A stretch of 64,000 bases of DNA from NCBI GenBank assembly GCA_039030075.1, contig JBCCEW010000018.1:1-64000 (forward strand), written 5' to 3'. The notes under the pieces are model-generated. The model did no database searches. It was not told the DNA's origin and saw nothing but the letters and a program-made list of their open reading frames with translations. Positions 1-6,915 of the stretch are shown here, piece after piece. The DNA is from Myxococcota bacterium. Its GTDB lineage: Bacteria > Myxococcota_A > UBA9160 > SMWR01. The first letter of the stretch is position 1. Each line of letters starts with the position of its first letter. The translations under genes and the position numbers were made by a program.

Positions 1-666
1 GGGGGGGGGTCGCGGGGGGCGGCCGGTTTGTTTCCCGGCGTGGGGCTTGGGGTGGCGGATTCCCACCCCCCCCGGCGCGCCCCCGGGGGGGGCCCCCGCG
101 CCCGGGGCCTCTCCATCCGGCGTTTCGCCTTCTCGCCAGAAACGGAACGAGTCGAAGAAGCGCAGGATGGTGGGGTGGTCGTCCGGCGGCGCGTCCGCCG
201 CGCGACCGGTCAAGACGTAGAGACGGCTGTCGACCAGGATCGCGAGGGCGCGCTCGACGCGCAGGTTCGGCAGCCGGAAGGTGAAGTCGATCGCCGGCTC
301 GCCCTGGTGCACCGACTCCTGGCTCTGGAGCTCGACGGCGCTGCTGTCCTCGAGGATGCCCGAGCGCACCTGATCGAGGATGGATCGGCTCGGCACCAGG
401 CGCGTGGCGAGCCAGGGCATGTCGTGGACTTCGATGGCGACGTGGGTTTCGTCGGCGAGGTCGACGATGTGCTTCGTCTCGCGGACGGCGCCGAGGGGCG
501 TACCCCGCTCGCGTTCCCGGAGCTTCGGATGCTCGGGAAACTCGACCTCGAAGCGGCCCGCCTGTGACGCGAAGACGCGCCAACCGGCGTTCGCCGGCAG
601 CGCCGCGAGGATCACGGCGGCTGCAAAGGTGATCGCCCACCCGCGCCGGCGTCCGAATCGTTCCAC
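1..666 (-). CDS. exported protein of unknown function, 3' end cut by window edge
   Basis: An open minus-strand frame starts at GTG 666 and runs off the window, so the stop is not seen. The N-terminus is arginine-rich, followed by a hydrophobic segment ending in an ANA-type cleavage site, so a Sec signal peptide is likely. The mature part begins WRVFASQAGRFEVEFPEHPK and continues with good coding character for about 180 residues. The last ~35 residues, read from bases 1-110, turn into Gly/Ala/Pro-rich low complexity that matches the G/C runs at the window start; this tail is probably not real. I do not recognise the family. It lies 23 bases downstream of the UGSC selenoprotein gene and could be in the same operon. 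Confidence 0.6.
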   Translation of the reverse strand, partial: MERFGRRRGWAITFAAAVILAALPANAGWRVFASQAGRFEVEFPEHPKLRERERGTPLGAVRETKHIVDLADETHVAIEVHDMPWLATRLVPSRSILDQVRSGILEDSSAVELQSQESVHQGEPAIDFTFRLPNLRVERALAILVDSRLYVLTGRAADAPPDDHPTILRFFDSFRFWREGETPDGEAPGAGAPPGGAPGGVGIRHPKPHAGKQTGRPPRPPP

Positions 667-689
667 TCTCCGCGGACCCCGCAGTCGGT

Positions 690-1211
690 TCAGGCCGACG
701 CGACCAGGTTCTCGAGAATCGCCTCCACCGCCTTGTCGGCGATCTGGCTCATCTCGGCGTCGGTGCGGTCCTGGATCGGATGCTCGACGAACACCGCCGC
801 CGGGTCGGCACCCAGCGCCTTTGCCTGCACTTCCGCTGCGTCCACGAACTCGGTCGTGGCGATGAAGACACTCGGTACACCGCGGGCCTCGAGATCCACC
901 GTGTCGTGCACACTGCACGACGTGCAGCTGCCTCAATCGGCCAGCGCCTCGACGACCGCGTCGCATTGCACCGCGATCTCCTGGCGCAGGTCGGGCGGGG
1001 CGGGCTTCGTGAAGGTGGGCTTCGAGTAGCGGGCGACGTCGGCGCCGTGCTCGCGCAGGCGCTCTTCGATGCGATCGAGGAAGAGGTTTCCCCGCGCCTT
1101 CGAGATGTCCAGCAGACCCACTTTGCGACCCGAAAGGCTGTCGAGCCGCGGCAGGCGCTCGCGGTGGGCGGCTTCCTGCTCGTGGGTGGGGTCGAGGACG
1201 AGTCGGGTCAT
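690..1211 (-). CDS. UGSC-type selenoprotein (in-frame TGA read as selenocysteine)
   Basis: The frame from ATG 1211 to the stop at 690 contains one TGA, at 933-935. The residues around it read QCDAVVEALAD-U-GSCTSCSVHDT, which is the UGSC motif of the UGSC-containing selenoprotein family known from marine metagenome surveys and related to glycine/sarcosine/betaine-reductase-type proteins. Coding character is equally good on both sides of the TGA, and both halves are in the same frame. With selenocysteine the protein is 173 aa. A stable hairpin follows the TGA at the spacing expected for a bacterial SECIS. The start overlaps the stop of the upstream partner gene (ATGA), so the two are translationally coupled. 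Function is probably redox, with Sec and two nearby cysteines as the active centre; the substrate is unknown. Standard gene callers would split or truncate this gene. Confidence 0.88.
903..921 (-). promoter_or_regulatory. bacterial SECIS-like hairpin downstream of the UGA codon
   Basis: Eleven bases after the TGA, the minus strand can form a perfect 8-bp stem (GTCGTGCA at 921-914 with TGCACGAC at 910-903) closed by the loop GTG. Known bacterial SECIS elements lie inside the ORF, with an apical loop about 16-37 nt after the UGA and a G among the first two loop bases. Both conditions hold here. A competing 5-bp hairpin (CTGCA/TGCAG) uses part of the same sequence. Confidence 0.7.
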
Positions 1212-2653
1212 GATCGAATCTCCCGCATCACGGGCACGCTTCCGACGGCGCCCGAGGCCCAGCCACCAATCATGGCAGAGAAGAGTCCGGCGCCGCCACC
1301 GCAGTGCACGATCAGCAGCCCTCCGGGGCGAAACTTCGGCAGGGTCTTGTCGGCGACGCTCTCGGGCAGGCCCTCGGCGATACCGCCGGCGCCTTGCACG
1401 AGCTCGGCGCCGGGGATCAGGAGCAGCTCGTTCAAACGACCGAGCAAGTCCTGCTTGCTCCAGCCCGCTTCCCGGAAGATCCGCGAGTGCTCCGGTCCGA
1501 TCGCGAGCAGGCAGTCGAAGGCGAGCACGAGCTTCGGGTGGTGGAGCGAGCGCAGGTTGACGGCGAGGGTGCGCGCCAGGGATTCGGGTTCGCGCGAGAG
1601 CTGGTCCACGATGCAGCGCGGTCCTTCGCCCGTGTAGAGCGTGACCGTGTCGGTGCCTTCGTCGGCGCCGAAGTCCGTCGACAGCGGGGTCCACGGCGAC
1701 CCTTCTTCGTCTTCCGCAAAGCAGAAGCCGAGCTTCCCCGGGTTGCCGTGGGCAGCGCGGTCGACCTCGCCGGGGCGACCTCCGCCCACGTTGCGGATCA
1801 CGAGTTGTAGCGCGCGCCCGATCGTGGAATTCGCGCGGTTGCCCTGACCAAAGACGTTCTTGTCGCTGTTCATCCCGATCCGGCGTCGGATCGGTCCGTT
1901 CACCACCACGACCGGTCCGACGGGCATGGTGGTGGCGAGCACACCGTGGATGTTGAACTCGTCCGTGCAGACGGCCTCGACGGCGGCGATCACCACCGGC
2001 AGGTACTCGGGCAGGCAGCCGGCCATCACCGCGTTGATGGCGACCTTCTCGACGGTCACCGGCACGAGGTTCGGCGGTACCGTCGCGACCACTTCGTCTG
2101 CGGGCCGGGTGGTGCCCGCGAGCATGGCCAGCACCCGCTTCTCGGTGGGCGGTACCACCGGCAGTCCGTCGCTCCAGCCGCGGGCGTAGGCGGCCTCGAA
2201 CTCGTCTTCCATGCTGGCGAGCTCGATGCGGCGCGACGCCAGCTTGTGTCCCTCGAAGCGCACCGCCAGGTCCGGCGCGACGTCCGGATCAACGCTGCGG
2301 GAGCCACAGCCCGGGCGCCACTCGGGCAAGCCTTCTCCGAGCCCGCCGATGCCAGTGAGCTTCTCCCAGTCGCCGCGGTGCCAGCCGATGGCCCGATCGA
2401 CCTCGGCTCCGTTCTCGACGCGGATCAGCGTCGGCACGGTTTCGATCTGATGGTGGTAGGAAACGCCGAGGCCTGTGTCGTCGACGGGCGACACACCTTC
2501 CGGGAAGCCGAGGTCGTCCTGGGTGTAGACGGTGAGCGCGGTCTGCTCGGCGAGCTCGCGCAACACCGGGGCGACGGTCTCGCAGGTGGGGCAGGCCCGC
2601 TTCACCACGGCGACGAGGCCGGACGGAAGCGTGGGGATGGCGGTCTCGGACAT
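1208..2653 (-). CDS. UGSC-partner protein with N-terminal thioredoxin-like CPTC domain
   Basis: 481 aa from ATG 2653, preceded by GAGGAG five bases upstream. Residues ~8-100 look like a thioredoxin/glutaredoxin-like domain with the redox motif RACPTCETVAPVL and a cis-Pro-type segment (VPTLIRVENG). The remaining ~370 residues form a conserved globular domain (GWSDGLPVVPPTEKRV, GPVVVVNGPIRRRIGMNS, GNRANSTIGRALQL, LLIVHCGGGAG) of the kind found beside UGSC selenoproteins. Its 3' end overlaps the selenoprotein start by 4 nt, which points to stoichiometric production and a joint complex. I infer that the CPTC domain passes electrons to or from the Sec/Cys centre of its partner; no substrate can be assigned. 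Confidence 0.8.
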   Translation of the reverse strand: MSETAIPTLPSGLVAVVKRACPTCETVAPVLRELAEQTALTVYTQDDLGFPEGVSPVDDTGLGVSYHHQIETVPTLIRVENGAEVDRAIGWHRGDWEKLTGIGGLGEGLPEWRPGCGSRSVDPDVAPDLAVRFEGHKLASRRIELASMEDEFEAAYARGWSDGLPVVPPTEKRVLAMLAGTTRPADEVVATVPPNLVPVTVEKVAINAVMAGCLPEYLPVVIAAVEAVCTDEFNIHGVLATTMPVGPVVVVNGPIRRRIGMNSDKNVFGQGNRANSTIGRALQLVIRNVGGGRPGEVDRAAHGNPGKLGFCFAEDEEGSPWTPLSTDFGADEGTDTVTLYTGEGPRCIVDQLSREPESLARTLAVNLRSLHHPKLVLAFDCLLAIGPEHSRIFREAGWSKQDLLGRLNELLLIPGAELVQGAGGIAEGLPESVADKTLPKFRPGGLLIVHCGGGAGLFSAMIGGWASGAVGSVPVMREIRS

Positions 2654-2679
2654 ACGGGCTCCTCGCGCGGGGACGCGCA

Positions 2680-2700
2680 CCGAGCCAGCCTATCAGATGG
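2680..2700 (-). promoter_or_regulatory. probable extended -10 promoter of the UGSC operon
   Basis: Minus strand reads ATCTGATAGGCTGG, i.e. TGA-TAGGCT, an extended -10. A ~35-nt leader with a GAGGAG ribosome site follows before ATG 2653. It has the same form as the other promoters inferred in this window (TG-N-TANNNT). Confidence 0.4.
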
Positions 2701-3340
2701 CCGCCGCCGACGGCGTGGCCCCCCGGTTGCGCGTCGCCACCCACGCCATCCAGACGGCACCGACGCCCCACAGCGCGTTCGCGAGCAACTGGATCGCGAA
2801 GACGGGCACGGGGACGAGCAGGAAGCCGAGCAGCACGCAGAGGCCCGACGCGGTGGGCAGGCGATCCGAACGCGCAATCGCGACCGCGAAACACACGAGC
2901 CCGAGGAGCGTGAGGACACCGTTGAGAACGAACAGGAACTCCCCGCCCTGAACGGCGCCGAGCATGGCCGGGCCTTCGGTCTGGGCGACGGCGCCGATCC
3001 CGGGCAGCGCCACGTACAGCAGGGCGAAGCTCCCGGCCCCGAACAGATCGCCGAGGGTGGCGAGGAGGAAGCCCCAGAACGCCCAGGCCTCGCTGCGGGT
3101 GGGTGCGAGGTAGAGATAGAGCGCAAAGGCGCCCACCACCTCGAGTGCGATGCCGACCAGGCCGCGCCCGGCGAAGAAGGCGAAGTCGCGGCTGGTGACC
3201 ATGGCCACGAAGGCGTCGGGATCGCGGCTCGGGTCGATCAGAAGGGTCTCGTCGGCGAGGAAGAACTCACCGACGAAGAAGAAAACGGCGCCGAGCACAC
3301 CGAGCCAAAGGCCCGCGGCGATGCGCGCACCGAGGCTCAC
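2693..3340 (-). CDS. multi-pass membrane protein, unknown function
   Basis: 215 aa from GTG 3340, chosen because GTGA overlaps the stop of the upstream gene. Six hydrophobic segments are visible (AAGLWLGVLGAVFFFVGEFF first, last near the C-terminus ending MAWVATRNRG). A loop after the first segment carries the acidic stretch DETLLIDPSRDPDAFVAMV. It resembles uncharacterised DUF-type integral membrane proteins of proteobacteria. It is coupled with the DUF4760-like gene upstream. Confidence 0.7.
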   Translation of the reverse strand: MSLGARIAAGLWLGVLGAVFFFVGEFFLADETLLIDPSRDPDAFVAMVTSRDFAFFAGRGLVGIALEVVGAFALYLYLAPTRSEAWAFWGFLLATLGDLFGAGSFALLYVALPGIGAVAQTEGPAMLGAVQGGEFLFVLNGVLTLLGLVCFAVAIARSDRLPTASGLCVLLGFLLVPVPVFAIQLLANALWGVGAVWMAWVATRNRGATPSAAAI

Positions 3341-3867
3341 GGCCCGCTCGGACGCCAGTCGGCGTACCGCTCGTAGGCCGGATTGGCCTCCTTGTGCTCG
3401 CCGTCCTTCATCAGCTGCTCGGCGAGCCAGTGGTACCACTCGCCCCAGGAGGACTGATTCTGCTCGGCCCGGACCGTGTCCAACCAGCGGTCCAGTTTGC
3501 GGAACATCACGACCGCCAACCCGCCCGTGAGTTCTCGCACGATCTCATAGGACGCGACACGGCGAAACACCATGAAGCCGATGGTCTCGTAGTGGGTCGT
3601 GATCATGATGGCGAGCCGCTCGTACTCGGGGCCGCGCGCGCGCAGGTCTTCCGCGCTCACGTGATCGGGTAGGTCGCGGATGCGCTCGATGGCTTCGATG
3701 AGGGCGGGCGACTGAAAGGCGCGCGAAAGCTCGATGGTCACCGTCTCGCGGCGCTGGGCCCGCACTTCGCGGATCTGGATGATCGCGAAGATCGCACCGC
3801 CCAGGATCGTGACGGCTCCCAACACCTCGGCGAGGTTGGCGAGGGTGGGCAGGTGATCCATCAGCAT
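3337..3867 (-). CDS. DUF4760-like single-pass membrane protein
   Basis: 176 aa. One N-terminal membrane segment (LAEVLGAVTILGGAIFAIIQIREVRAQRRE) is followed by a helical cytosolic domain with conserved aromatic residues (WYHWLAEQL near the end). This layout, Asn/Leu-rich N-terminus, one TM helix, then a QxRExR turn and an all-helical domain, is shared with the proteins at 33268-33792 and 48745-49221 and with DUF4760-type families. Start is uncertain: ATG 3867 or ATG 3861, with no clear ribosome site. Function unknown. Confidence 0.65.
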   Translation of the reverse strand: MLMDHLPTLANLAEVLGAVTILGGAIFAIIQIREVRAQRRETVTIELSRAFQSPALIEAIERIRDLPDHVSAEDLRARGPEYERLAIMITTHYETIGFMVFRRVASYEIVRELTGGLAVVMFRKLDRWLDTVRAEQNQSSWGEWYHWLAEQLMKDGEHKEANPAYERYADWRPSGP

Positions 3868-3942
3868 GACGCGGACCGGACGCAGGAAACGGGTTGGCGC
3901 ATCGCGGCACCGTACCACGAAGGGGAAGGCCGCAGACAGTCG

Positions 3943-4323
3943 CTAGCGCTGTCGATCCGAGCGGACATGCGCCCAAAAGGCCAGGCCGAGAGCCGCGACC
4001 GCGAATACGTCGACACCGGCCACGCGGGCGAGTTCCGGGTTGGGCTCTCCCACCCATGCGACGAGGAAGAGATAGGAGAGCATGCTGGCGAAACCGGCGA
4101 CTGCGGCCGGAGGGCGCAACGACGGCCAACGCGCCGCCGCGAGCAGGAGCCCGCCGACGATCCCGAGCATCACCGCCCGGTGTCGCATCAGGATCTCGAG
4201 GTCGGAGCCTTCGAAGGGGATGCCGTAGAGGCCTTCCAGGCGCGAGACGCCACTGACCCCGACGACGGGCAGGGCGTTGATCAGACCGGCGAGGGCGAAG
4301 CCGATTCGGGCGACGGTTTCCAT
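3943..4323 (-). CDS. small four-helix membrane protein
   Basis: 126 aa from ATG 4323. Four hydrophobic helices; N-terminus METVARIGFALAGLINALPVVG, then a polar loop (RLEGLYGIPFEGSDLEILMRHRAVML) before helix 2. Proteins of this type are common in proteobacteria and are sometimes misnamed phosphopantetheine adenylyltransferase; nothing here supports an enzyme. Stand-alone gene between the DUF4760-like operon and a lipoprotein gene. Confidence 0.65.
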   Translation of the reverse strand: METVARIGFALAGLINALPVVGVSGVSRLEGLYGIPFEGSDLEILMRHRAVMLGIVGGLLLAAARWPSLRPPAAVAGFASMLSYLFLVAWVGEPNPELARVAGVDVFAVAALGLAFWAHVRSDRQR

Positions 4324-4425
4324 GCCGCAAGGCTGGTGCGAAGCGGCGCGTTCTCCCAGGTCCAATGCGACGCCCGCGGATGGGGCCACGCCGCTCCGAT
4401 CAGCGCGCCGGGAGTCGCGGGGAGC

Positions 4426-4863
4426 TCACTCGGGCGGAATGATCCCGAGCAGCTCGAACTCGGCCAGCGTCCCGACGCCCTGGCTGCCATCGTCGATCTG
4501 GAGGTACCCGATCATGTCCGTGCCGCCTGCGTTCTCTGCCTGGACGATGATCACCCGGATGCGGTCCGAGCCGCCGGCGTCGGTGAGGTAGGCGTACTGG
4601 GGAATCTGCAGATCGAGGGGAACGCCGATGATGCTCTCTCCGACCTGGGCGACGAACACCGCGTCTCCCGACTCGACGTCGGCCATGCTGGCAGCGCGGC
4701 CAACGATGAAGCCGCTGCTGGGAAGCACGGGCCAACCGGACGCCCCAGAGCCAGAGCCCGTGGTCTCCCCGGACGGCGTCTCGCTGCCACAGGCACCGAG
4801 ACCCGCCGCGCTGACCGCGGCCAGAACGACGAGCAGGAGTTGGTGGACGGGCGTCTTCCTCAT
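4426..4863 (-). CDS. lipoprotein, unknown function
   Basis: 145 aa. Signal peptide with lipobox LGAC (Cys at residue 25), then a Ser/Gly-rich linker and a compact beta-rich domain (FIVGRAASMADVESGDAVFVAQ). Probably anchored to the outer membrane. A -10-like TCTGGTAGCGT ends seven bases before ATG 4863, so the mRNA is probably leaderless. Confidence 0.65.
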   Translation of the reverse strand: MRKTPVHQLLLVVLAAVSAAGLGACGSETPSGETTGSGSGASGWPVLPSSGFIVGRAASMADVESGDAVFVAQVGESIIGVPLDLQIPQYAYLTDAGGSDRIRVIIVQAENAGGTDMIGYLQIDDGSQGVGTLAEFELLGIIPPE

Positions 4864-4921
4864 CCCGCGGACGCTACCAGATCGACGGCGAAGCGTGTCG
4901 CACCGCGCGCAGACCCAGTCG

Positions 4922-5386
4922 CTAGCGGTTGAGCCACCAAAGACCTGCGTTCAGATACGACGCGTATCCGACCCAGGCGAGGTAGGGGAGGAGCAGCAGA
5001 CCCGCGCTCGGGACGAGCGCATGGAAGCGCCGCGCGGTCCACGCGACCAGCACCCCGAGCACCGCGATCTCGAGGAGCGCGACACCCATCCAGTGGAGCC
5101 CGAAGAAGAGGTAGGACCAAAGGGCATTCAGGGCGAGCTGCGTTCCCCAGAGTGCCAGCGCGGGACGCGCGGCCTCACGTTCGTGGCGAACCCGCCAGAT
5201 CCACCACGCCGCGACGGCGATCGCGAGGTACAAGACTGTCCACACCGGTCCGAACACCGCGTTCGGAGGGGTCCCGGGCGGCTTCCGCAGCGCGGCGTAC
5301 CACTCGCCTGGCGTGAACTGCGCGCCGAACCCCCCTGCGGCGAAGACGAGCGCGAGGAAGACGAGGAGGGCTCCGATGTGTTGCAC
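4922..5386 (-). CDS. tspO: TspO/MBR family membrane protein
   Basis: 154 aa with five membrane helices, the normal size of bacterial TspO. Family landmarks are present: the W-Y-x-L-KPPxTPPNAVFGPVWTVLY motif in the loop after helix 1 and in helix 2, the central ALNALWSYLFFG segment and the C-terminal LPYLAWVGYASYLN. TspO proteins bind porphyrins and affect tetrapyrrole and stress responses. The gene stands alone between lipoprotein genes. Confidence 0.9.
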   Translation of the reverse strand: MQHIGALLVFLALVFAAGGFGAQFTPGEWYAALRKPPGTPPNAVFGPVWTVLYLAIAVAAWWIWRVRHEREAARPALALWGTQLALNALWSYLFFGLHWMGVALLEIAVLGVLVAWTARRFHALVPSAGLLLLPYLAWVGYASYLNAGLWWLNR

Positions 5387-5463
5387 GCCTCGACCCTAGC
5401 GGCAGCAGGCCGGCCCGCCGACGCGCGTACCCATGAGCTCGTGGACGGTCGGCTCGAACCCGC

Positions 5464-5847
5464 TCAGCTCGCGGGCTGGAAGGTCAGCTCGAGCGGGGCA
5501 CCGCCGCGCTCGACGCCGAGTTGGGCGGCGGTGGCGCCTCCGAGTACACACAGGAGATAGGTCGACCCCTCGGTGCTCTTCACCGGGTCGCCGTTCACCG
5601 ACACGATCGTGTCTCCCGACTGGAAGCCGAGGTTCGCGAAGTGGCTGCCCGGCTCCAGCCGCACCAGCTGCTGGCCGTAGATCTGACCGTCGGCGAACAC
5701 CGGGATCAGCTTCGCCCCGTCGAGGAGCGCGCCCAACCGATCCTGGTGCTCGGCCGTGACGAAGCAGCGGTTGCCGTCGGTGCCGCTCCCGGTCGCGCAG
5801 GCGAGGGCGGTGACGGTGAAGGCGATGGCGACGAGACGTTCGAACAT
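5464..5847 (-). CDS. PDZ-domain lipoprotein (GspC-like PDZ)
   Basis: 127 aa. Signal peptide with a Cys at residue 17 (TALAC) that fits a lipobox. The rest is one PDZ domain: LVRLEPGSHFANLGFQSGDT, IVSVNGDPVKS and a C-terminal strand pair, similar to the PDZ domain of type II secretion GspC. No membrane anchor other than the lipid and no secretion genes nearby. Leader contains GGAGG eight bases before ATG 5847; upstream TCTGGTAGCGT looks like its -10 region. Confidence 0.7.
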   Translation of the reverse strand: MFERLVAIAFTVTALACATGSGTDGNRCFVTAEHQDRLGALLDGAKLIPVFADGQIYGQQLVRLEPGSHFANLGFQSGDTIVSVNGDPVKSTEGSTYLLCVLGGATAAQLGVERGGAPLELTFQPAS

Positions 5848-5970
5848 GGAGACCTCCGAAACCCCACGCTACCAGAAGCGGCCGCGTGCCCCTCGAGCCA
5901 CGGCGCGTTCTTCTTCCGCCCGGGCCTGAATTCTCCCCGGACGGCGAACCCGCGCGGCTACTCTGCCCGC

Positions 5971-6915
5971 ATGAGCCGCTACGCGTACGACCCCGACCTG
6001 GTGCCCGCTCTCGACCTCTTGCCCACGGTCAGCGACCTCTCGAGTCTCGACTCGATCCGCGAGATCCGCGCCGCGCGGGCGGCCTTGCCGAAGCCTCCCG
6101 ATCGTGACGACGTGACCCTCGAGGACCGCACGGTTCCCGGTTGCGACGGCGATCCGCCGGTGCCGGTCCGCATCTATCGGCCCAAGGCACCGGCGGACGG
6201 GCTGCGCCCCGGCGTGTTCGAGATCCATGGCGGTGGCTTTCTGATGGGCAGCATCGAGATGATGGACCCGTGGTGCCAGCTGGTCGCTTCCGTCCTCGAC
6301 GCCGTCATCGTATCGGTCGAGTATCGACTCGCGCCGGAGCATCCCTTCCCGGCCGGCATCGAGGACTGCTACGCGGCCCTGTCCTGGATGTCCGAGAACG
6401 CCTCCGAACTGGGCGTCGATCCAGCACGCATCGCGATCGCCGGTCAGAGCGCGGGCGGCGGGCTCGCCGCGGGCACGGCGCTGATGGCCCGCGACCGCGG
6501 GGGGCCGGCCCTGTGCTTTCAGCTCCTCGAGATCCCCGAACTCGACGATCGACTCGATACACCGTCGATGCGCGCCTTCGAGGACACGCCGATGTGGAAT
6601 CGCCCGAACGCGGTGTGGAGCTGGCGCCACTATCTGGGCCCGGACCACGCGGGGACCCCATCGCCCTATGCGGCGCCGTCTCGGGCGACGGATCTGCGCG
6701 GCCTCCCGCCGGCCTACGTCTCGACGATGGAGTTCGACCCGCTGCGCGACGAGGGCATCCGCTATGCACAGGCGCTGCTCGAAGCAGGCGTCTCGGTCGA
6801 GCTGCATTCGTACCCGGGAACGTTCCACGGGTCGGTGCTCGTCGCCGAGGCACCCGTGTCGAAACGCAGCGCGCGGGAGGCGATCGAGACGCTGCAGCGG
6901 CGTCTCCAGGCCTAG
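5971..6915 (+). CDS. alpha/beta hydrolase fold-3 (HSL family) esterase
   Basis: 314 aa. The HSL-family oxyanion motif HGGG (EIHGGGFLMGS) is followed by the EYRLAPEHPFPAG block and the nucleophile elbow GQSAGG. The acid is probably in MEFDPLRDEG and the histidine in GTFHGS. Predicted soluble carboxylesterase or lipase-like enzyme on short-chain esters. ATG 5971 lies six bases after a -10-like TACTCT (5959-5964), so translation is probably leaderless. First clear plus-strand gene in the window, flanked by minus-strand genes. Confidence 0.88.
   Translation: MSRYAYDPDLVPALDLLPTVSDLSSLDSIREIRAARAALPKPPDRDDVTLEDRTVPGCDGDPPVPVRIYRPKAPADGLRPGVFEIHGGGFLMGSIEMMDPWCQLVASVLDAVIVSVEYRLAPEHPFPAGIEDCYAALSWMSENASELGVDPARIAIAGQSAGGGLAAGTALMARDRGGPALCFQLLEIPELDDRLDTPSMRAFEDTPMWNRPNAVWSWRHYLGPDHAGTPSPYAAPSRATDLRGLPPAYVSTMEFDPLRDEGIRYAQALLEAGVSVELHSYPGTFHGSVLVAEAPVSKRSAREAIETLQRRLQA

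Follow-up and report, generated by a model that had tools for sequence, protein, structure and literature searches.

A UGSC Family Selenoprotein Gene and Its Overlapping Partner: Comparative Data Suggest a Two-Part, Thioredoxin-Driven Selenium Enzyme

The UGSC Locus

The window, i.e., the whole stretch of 64,000 nucleotides analyzed here, harbors on its minus strand two overlapping genes, the second of which is interrupted by a TGA in frame (Table 1). Positions 1-110 of the window form a very G/C-rich, low-complexity contig end that is possibly of poor sequence.

Table 1. Features of the UGSC locus in the window.
Feature	Position	Strand	Characteristics and evidence
UGSC family selenoprotein gene	690..1211	-	173 aa, Sec as residue 93; final stop TGA 690-692
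In-frame TGA as selenocysteine codon, the U of UGSCTSC	933..935	-	Family codon survey; selA/selB/selC/selD in the genome
Bacterial SECIS hairpin	903..921	-	8-bp stem 921-914/910-903, loop GUG 913-911; folding, synonymous constraint, covariation; mostly lost in Cys copies
Partner gene	1208..2653	-	481 aa; N-terminal thioredoxin domain and unnamed C-terminal domain
Thioredoxin domain of partner, residues 12-100	2354..2620	-	CPTC at 2582-2593; Pfam/NCBIfam/PDB sequence and fold matches; C21 and C24 invariant
UGSC-partner domain, residues 145-481	1211..2221	-	Invariant Cys213, near-invariant His236, R/N/G-rich motifs
ATGA overlap of partner stop and UGSC start	1208..1211	-	4 nt; translational coupling inferred

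The UGSC frame starts with an ATG at 1211-1209 and is translated from 1211 to 690 as MTRLVLDPTHEQEAAH...VVEALADUGSCTSCSVHDTVDLEARGVPSVFIATTEF...HPIQDRTDAEMSQIADKAVEAILENLVASA, U93 lying within the motif ALADUGSCTSCSVHD. A previous sequence-only reading had placed the TGA exactly on the U of U-G-S-C-T-S-C, in a frame that keeps its coding character on both sides, with a hairpin of 8 bp and a GTG loop 11 nt further on and a partner gene overlapping by 4 nt. All of its coordinates were found to be right. Regarding the coding character, differences from the nearest relative (L061) amount to 13/11/32 at the three codon positions before the TGA and 9/3/27 after it; as substitutions fall mostly at third positions on both sides, both sides evolve as coding sequence.

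The read-through product matches the Pfam family PF24696 "UGSC" over residues 5-170 (E 8e-48; 163.3 bits for a cut-off of 25) as well as NCBIfam NF041046 "UGSC family (seleno)protein" (160.3 bits for a cut-off of 125), in agreement with the family assignment made from the motif. Residue 93, encoded by TGA, is followed by GSC as in the [U/C]GSC feature of the family. Among 144 distinct UGSC copies with a readable codon, drawn from 159 hits, the aligned codon is TGA in 142 and Cys in two, both from one genome that also holds a Sec copy. Of ten annotated copies on plasmids, which stem from haloarchaea, actinobacteria, and proteobacteria, 2 have TGA and 8 have Cys. No residue other than Sec or Cys can be found at this position in the 144 family members and the 10 plasmid copies, so that the sense codon that would have spoken against the sequence-only reading did not turn up. 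A match to one family over most of the read-through product, together with a nearly uniform TGA, is more than chance. A PDB sequence search with the UGSC protein returned nothing significant, and the viral contigs searched yielded no relative.

With every testable membership feature present, the gene is, on comparative grounds, a UGSC family selenoprotein. Since the family is already known and named, this copy is a new member and not a new family. According to the Global Ocean Sampling selenoproteome study of 2008, a UGSC-containing family is among the major families of that data set (PMC2398784), and the family is still listed without function (PMC13188914).

Selenium Machinery and Annotation of UGSC Genes

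The host genome (5.76 Mb in 55 contigs, 95% complete) contains one SelA (E 4e-129), SelB and SelD, each above its cut-off, and a tRNA-Sec (69.7 bits for a gathering threshold of 47) to which ARAGORN assigns the anticodon UCA; the four sel genes proposed as a check are thus all present. Across 91 genomes of the class, SelA is present in 66 of the 67 genomes with UGSC above the Pfam cut-off, the remaining one being 85% complete, and UGSC is absent from six of the seven genomes lacking SelA.

The prediction that automated calling would report two fragments is borne out in public records. The homologue from Paracoccus ferrooxidans (CP038202) is deposited as two "hypothetical protein" pieces, and in Acidovorax sp. 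T1 the N-terminal fragment of a TGA-containing homologue is alone annotated. Splitting or truncation into such fragments concerns the loci L205 (CP038202.1) and L202 (NZ_CP021650.1); the Paracoccus record also has selB nearby.

The SECIS Hairpin

The hairpin, GUCGUGCA-GUG-UGCACGAC, starts 11 nt after the TGA, with a spacing of 19 nt from the TGA to the loop. The bacterial SECIS model requires a loop of 3-9 nt, a stem of 4-16 bp, 16-37 nt from the UGA to the loop and a minimum free energy of -7.5 kcal/mol or lower, one of the first two loop nucleotides being G, mostly as G[G/U] (PMC13188914). With its 3-nt GUG loop, 8 bp, 19 nt and -12.4 kcal/mol, the structure proposed at 921-903 falls within these rules. 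Folded alone, it is more stable than shuffled sequences (z = -2.3); a 51-nt fold including the TGA is no better than shuffles (z -0.95), and an Rfam scan of positions 1-6000 found no RNA family.

Synonymous diversity among 41 relatives of the window protein drops to 0.10 in codons 97-104, vs. 0.50 outside, the lowest value of 159 eight-codon windows. Ser98 is encoded by TCG in all 31 sequences with Ser there, and Ser100 by AGT in 39/39. In 129 distinct 48-nt Sec contexts, 91% of the stem cells are paired, vs. 84% in column shuffles (maximum 85%) and 10-57% in slid registers, and the loop starts with GU in 114. Compensatory changes can be found at three stem pairs, namely 17-29, 18-28, and 20-26 (the T of TGA being 0). 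At pair 20-26, the C-G of ...UGC AGU GUG... is replaced by G-C in ...UGG AGU GUC..., the change in codon 101 being synonymous. As pairing is partly tied to conserved amino acids, the weight rests on the synonymous test and on covariation. Cys copies retain a mean of 5.1 of the eight pairs, one haloarchaeal Cys copy still having all eight, and the two TGA plasmid copies have 8/8. On this comparative evidence, the hairpin is a SECIS element.

The Partner Gene

The partner was named as such from the 4-nt overlap alone; the ATGA is indeed present, and the partnership can now be considered strong. Partners were located with a model built on the C-terminal domain. In 135 of 144 copies, UGSC and a partner gene are same-strand neighbors: the partner lies upstream in 113, with the 4-nt overlap in 58 of these, and downstream in 22, four of the downstream partners being fused to UGSC in one frame. 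The remaining nine copies comprise four that are at contig ends or degenerate and five with clear flanks whose partner lies elsewhere in the genome (L129, L132, L135, L152, and L164). There are 67 genomes with both UGSC and the partner and two with the partner but not UGSC, each time at a contig end; no genome has UGSC without the partner (Fisher p 4e-19, uncorrected for relatedness). The pair recurs in haloarchaea, and no second universally conserved neighbor was found in the GTDB loci. That the pairing persists through changes of gene order and reappears in archaea argues strongly for joint function, and these genomic comparisons make it very probable that UGSC and the overlapping gene form an obligate pair.

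The C-terminal domain of the partner, of about 335 residues, matches no Pfam or NCBIfam model. A Foldseek search with the partner matched thioredoxins alone in the N-terminal domain and gave noise elsewhere, the C-terminal domain having no recognizable fold match. In the 2008 paper, UGSC is already reported fused to a domain called "Unknown_1" (PMC2398784), which may be the partner domain of the window gene.

The same genome has a second UGSC gene (L031/L088; G000:C37:28991-29494), with an in-frame TGA, a hairpin and a partner lacking a fused thioredoxin. It is surrounded by a molybdopterin oxidoreductase, an Amidohydro_2 gene and an acetoacetate decarboxylase-like gene. A degenerate copy in another genome (L107; G067:C28:16826-17242), with two TGA and one TAG, is probably a decaying paralogue.

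Association With Thioredoxin

Both cysteines of the CPTC motif in the partner are invariant in 23 sequences. The second-subfamily partners that were checked have no fused thioredoxin domain. In Arthrobacter sp. ERGS1:01 the gene order is trxB-trxA-partner-UGSC; in this genome, a gene of its own encodes the thioredoxin that is part of the partner in the window. A trxB gene follows the pair in Roseovarius sp. THAF8 and lies three genes upstream of it in Variovorax sp. SRS16; the trxB products of these three genomes exceed the NCBIfam thioredoxin reductase cut-off, below which the TrxB-like neighbors in Haloterrigena turkmenica and V. boronicumulans fall. Gene fusion and gene order thus link the pair to thioredoxin, the likely electron donor.

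Predicted Fold and Relation to GrdB

AlphaFold2 predicts UGSC with confidence (pLDDT 91, pTM 0.85), as alternating strands and helices in five beta/alpha units, Sec being located between strand 3 and the next helix. The PDB matches listed for this model are generic Rossmann/flavodoxin-like folds with low TM-scores, and no thioredoxin is among them. The predicted fold is therefore Rossmann/flavodoxin-like, as judged from the model. A thioredoxin-like fold for UGSC, proposed in the 2008 study (PMC2398784), was considered and set aside in view of the same model and matches.

Regarding sequence relatives, the GrdB model TIGR01917 is matched by 14 of 26 UGSC members, with a best E of 4e-5 and none near the cut-off. 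For the window protein, the match to GrdB is weak (E 5e-4) and covers the C-terminal half alone. By hhalign, UGSC aligns with GrdB-like sequences at 94% probability, Sec on Sec. Sec is residue 350 of 436 in GrdB from C. sticklandii (PMC3091704), and the profile alignment places UGSC residue 93 close to it. A UxxCxxC motif is ascribed to GrdB (PMC13188914), and to UGSCTSC in UGSC corresponds UGTCTRC in the C-terminal part of a GrdB copy of the same class (L188). The window protein remains below the curated cut-offs of the GrdB and PrdB families (TIGR01917, TIGR04483; 19 bits vs. 602), and no pyruvoyl protein of the GrdE/PrdA type was detected in the pair, the partner matching no such Pfam or NCBIfam model. 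For both reasons UGSC is not filed as GrdB or PrdB; by analogy, it may nevertheless work like them.

Short GrdB/PrdB-like proteins can also be found in the same class, namely L189, L196, and L199 (UPNC) and L198 (UPVC), whose DNA carries TGA in frame at the place of Sec, although the search table gave no internal stop for any of the four. They are possibly another selenoprotein group related to UGSC. The genome of the window itself has a weak GRDB-family match at G000:C23:51393-51743 (E 3e-4).

Proposed Mechanism and Alternatives

In the mechanism proposed from the comparative evidence, the UGA at 933-935 would be read as selenocysteine because SelB carrying Sec-tRNA would bind the hairpin at 903-921. 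The product would be a small domain of Rossmann-like fold, akin to the Sec domain of GrdB, in which a helix begins with the redox motif U-x-x-C-x-x-C. It would act jointly with the protein whose gene overlaps its own from upstream. The conserved C-terminal domain of that partner would form the substrate site; the selenolate would attack the substrate and then be bound to Cys96 in a selenenyl-sulfide. Thioredoxin reductase would supply the CPTC thioredoxin domain of the partner, and this domain would reset the U93-Cys96 bond.

In glycine reductase, electrons pass from NADPH to thioredoxin reductase, thioredoxin, and then GrdA and GrdB (PMC3091704); in D-proline reductase, Sec is proposed to attack the alpha-carbon (PMC3091704), and cleavage of a C-F bond has been proposed for a relative of GrdB (PMC10838667). 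With regard to substrates, catabolic neighbors recur beside the pair, i.e., family III CoA-transferases, P450, acyl-CoA dehydrogenases, amidohydrolases, and substrate transporters; CoA-transferases are found at 20 of 101 loci, P450 at 17, acyl-CoA dehydrogenases at 13 and Amidohydro_2 at 12, although such genes may just be common in these genomes.

Taken as a whole, the data are best explained, with a probability of roughly 0.6, by a Sec-decoded UGSC that forms with its partner a thioredoxin-recycled, GrdB-like two-component reductase. For the full thioredoxin-dependent reductase mechanism, GrdB- or PrdB-like in all its steps, the odds appear about even. Slightly short of even is the broader and more tentative proposal of a previously unrecognized two-component thioredoxin-dependent reductase that would bring selenolate chemistry of the GrdB type to aerobes and haloarchaea, with paralogous pairs serving different catabolic substrates.

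The main rival, rather unlikely, is that the pair acts as a reductase of peroxides or organic hydroperoxides. As in selenoproteins of the peroxiredoxin type, oxidation would turn Sec into a selenenic acid and the thioredoxin domain would reset it, while the partner domain would do no more than dock or stabilize the selenoprotein. A UxxC motif next to thioredoxin and thioredoxin reductase would suit any thiol peroxidase, and GrdB itself has been reported with peroxidase activity, judging from a title cited in PMC3091704. However, the modeled UGSC has neither a peroxiredoxin nor a thioredoxin fold, the partner domain has many strictly conserved Gly, Arg, Asn, His, and Cys positions, as in a catalytic or substrate-binding domain, and the neighbors are catabolic enzymes and substrate transporters, not stress genes. 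Much less probable still is a pair that detoxifies a metal or metalloid bound by Sec or Cys as a ligand: such roles are discussed for other selenoproteins without assigned function (PMC13188914), but no recurrent metal-resistance cassette lies beside the pair in the loci read, where thioredoxin and thioredoxin reductase are the telling neighbors.

That the TGA is a true stop, arising from a nonsense mutation, a sequencing error or regulated truncation and leaving the downstream part untranslated, has in its favor that translation table 11 ends the frame there. The same-codon TGA throughout the family, the intact coding on both sides, the constrained and covarying SECIS that follows, the complete Sec machinery of the genome and the Cys that replaces TGA in the remaining copies all argue against it, and error or true stop is rejected with a negligible residual probability. 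Conversely, these comparisons indicate that the apparent stop is almost certainly a selenocysteine codon.

Significance

In the comparative data, UGSC is accompanied by a single unnamed partner gene and by thioredoxin components, which suggests a two-part, thioredoxin-driven selenium enzyme. What is new for the family is the obligate partner, the predicted Rossmann-like fold, the relation to GrdB and the link to thioredoxin and thioredoxin reductase; no earlier description of the partner, the fold or the thioredoxin link was found in the open-access literature, the supplement of the 2008 paper excluded. Three findings make the function of UGSC directly testable and tell which proteins need joint expression: the strict genetic partner, for which there is no family model, the probable electron donor thioredoxin, with trxB/trxA as neighbors, and the kinship with GrdB. 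The locus also illustrates that such TGA-containing genes are broken into fragments in public records.

Comparison With Known Systems

Within the UGSC family (PF24696, NF041046; PMC2398784), the window protein shares the full-length match, the UGSC motif, the alternation of Sec and Cys and the occurrence in genomes with a Sec system. The N-terminal domain of the partner shares with thioredoxin the fold, the CxxC motif (CPTC) and weak family hits, but differs in being fused to an unnamed domain of 335 residues and in scoring below the curated thioredoxin cut-offs. GrdB and PrdB have in common with UGSC the U-x-x-C-x-x-C motif, the Sec-on-Sec alignment and a similar C-terminal domain. However, GrdB has about 436 aa, whereas UGSC has 173 and is without the N-terminal part of GrdB, and the partner of UGSC belongs to an unrelated, unnamed family, in contrast with the pyruvoyl subunit of GrdB/PrdB systems, the like of which was not detected here. 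With glycine reductase, the UGSC pair has a further proposed likeness, as that enzyme is reduced by a thioredoxin system.
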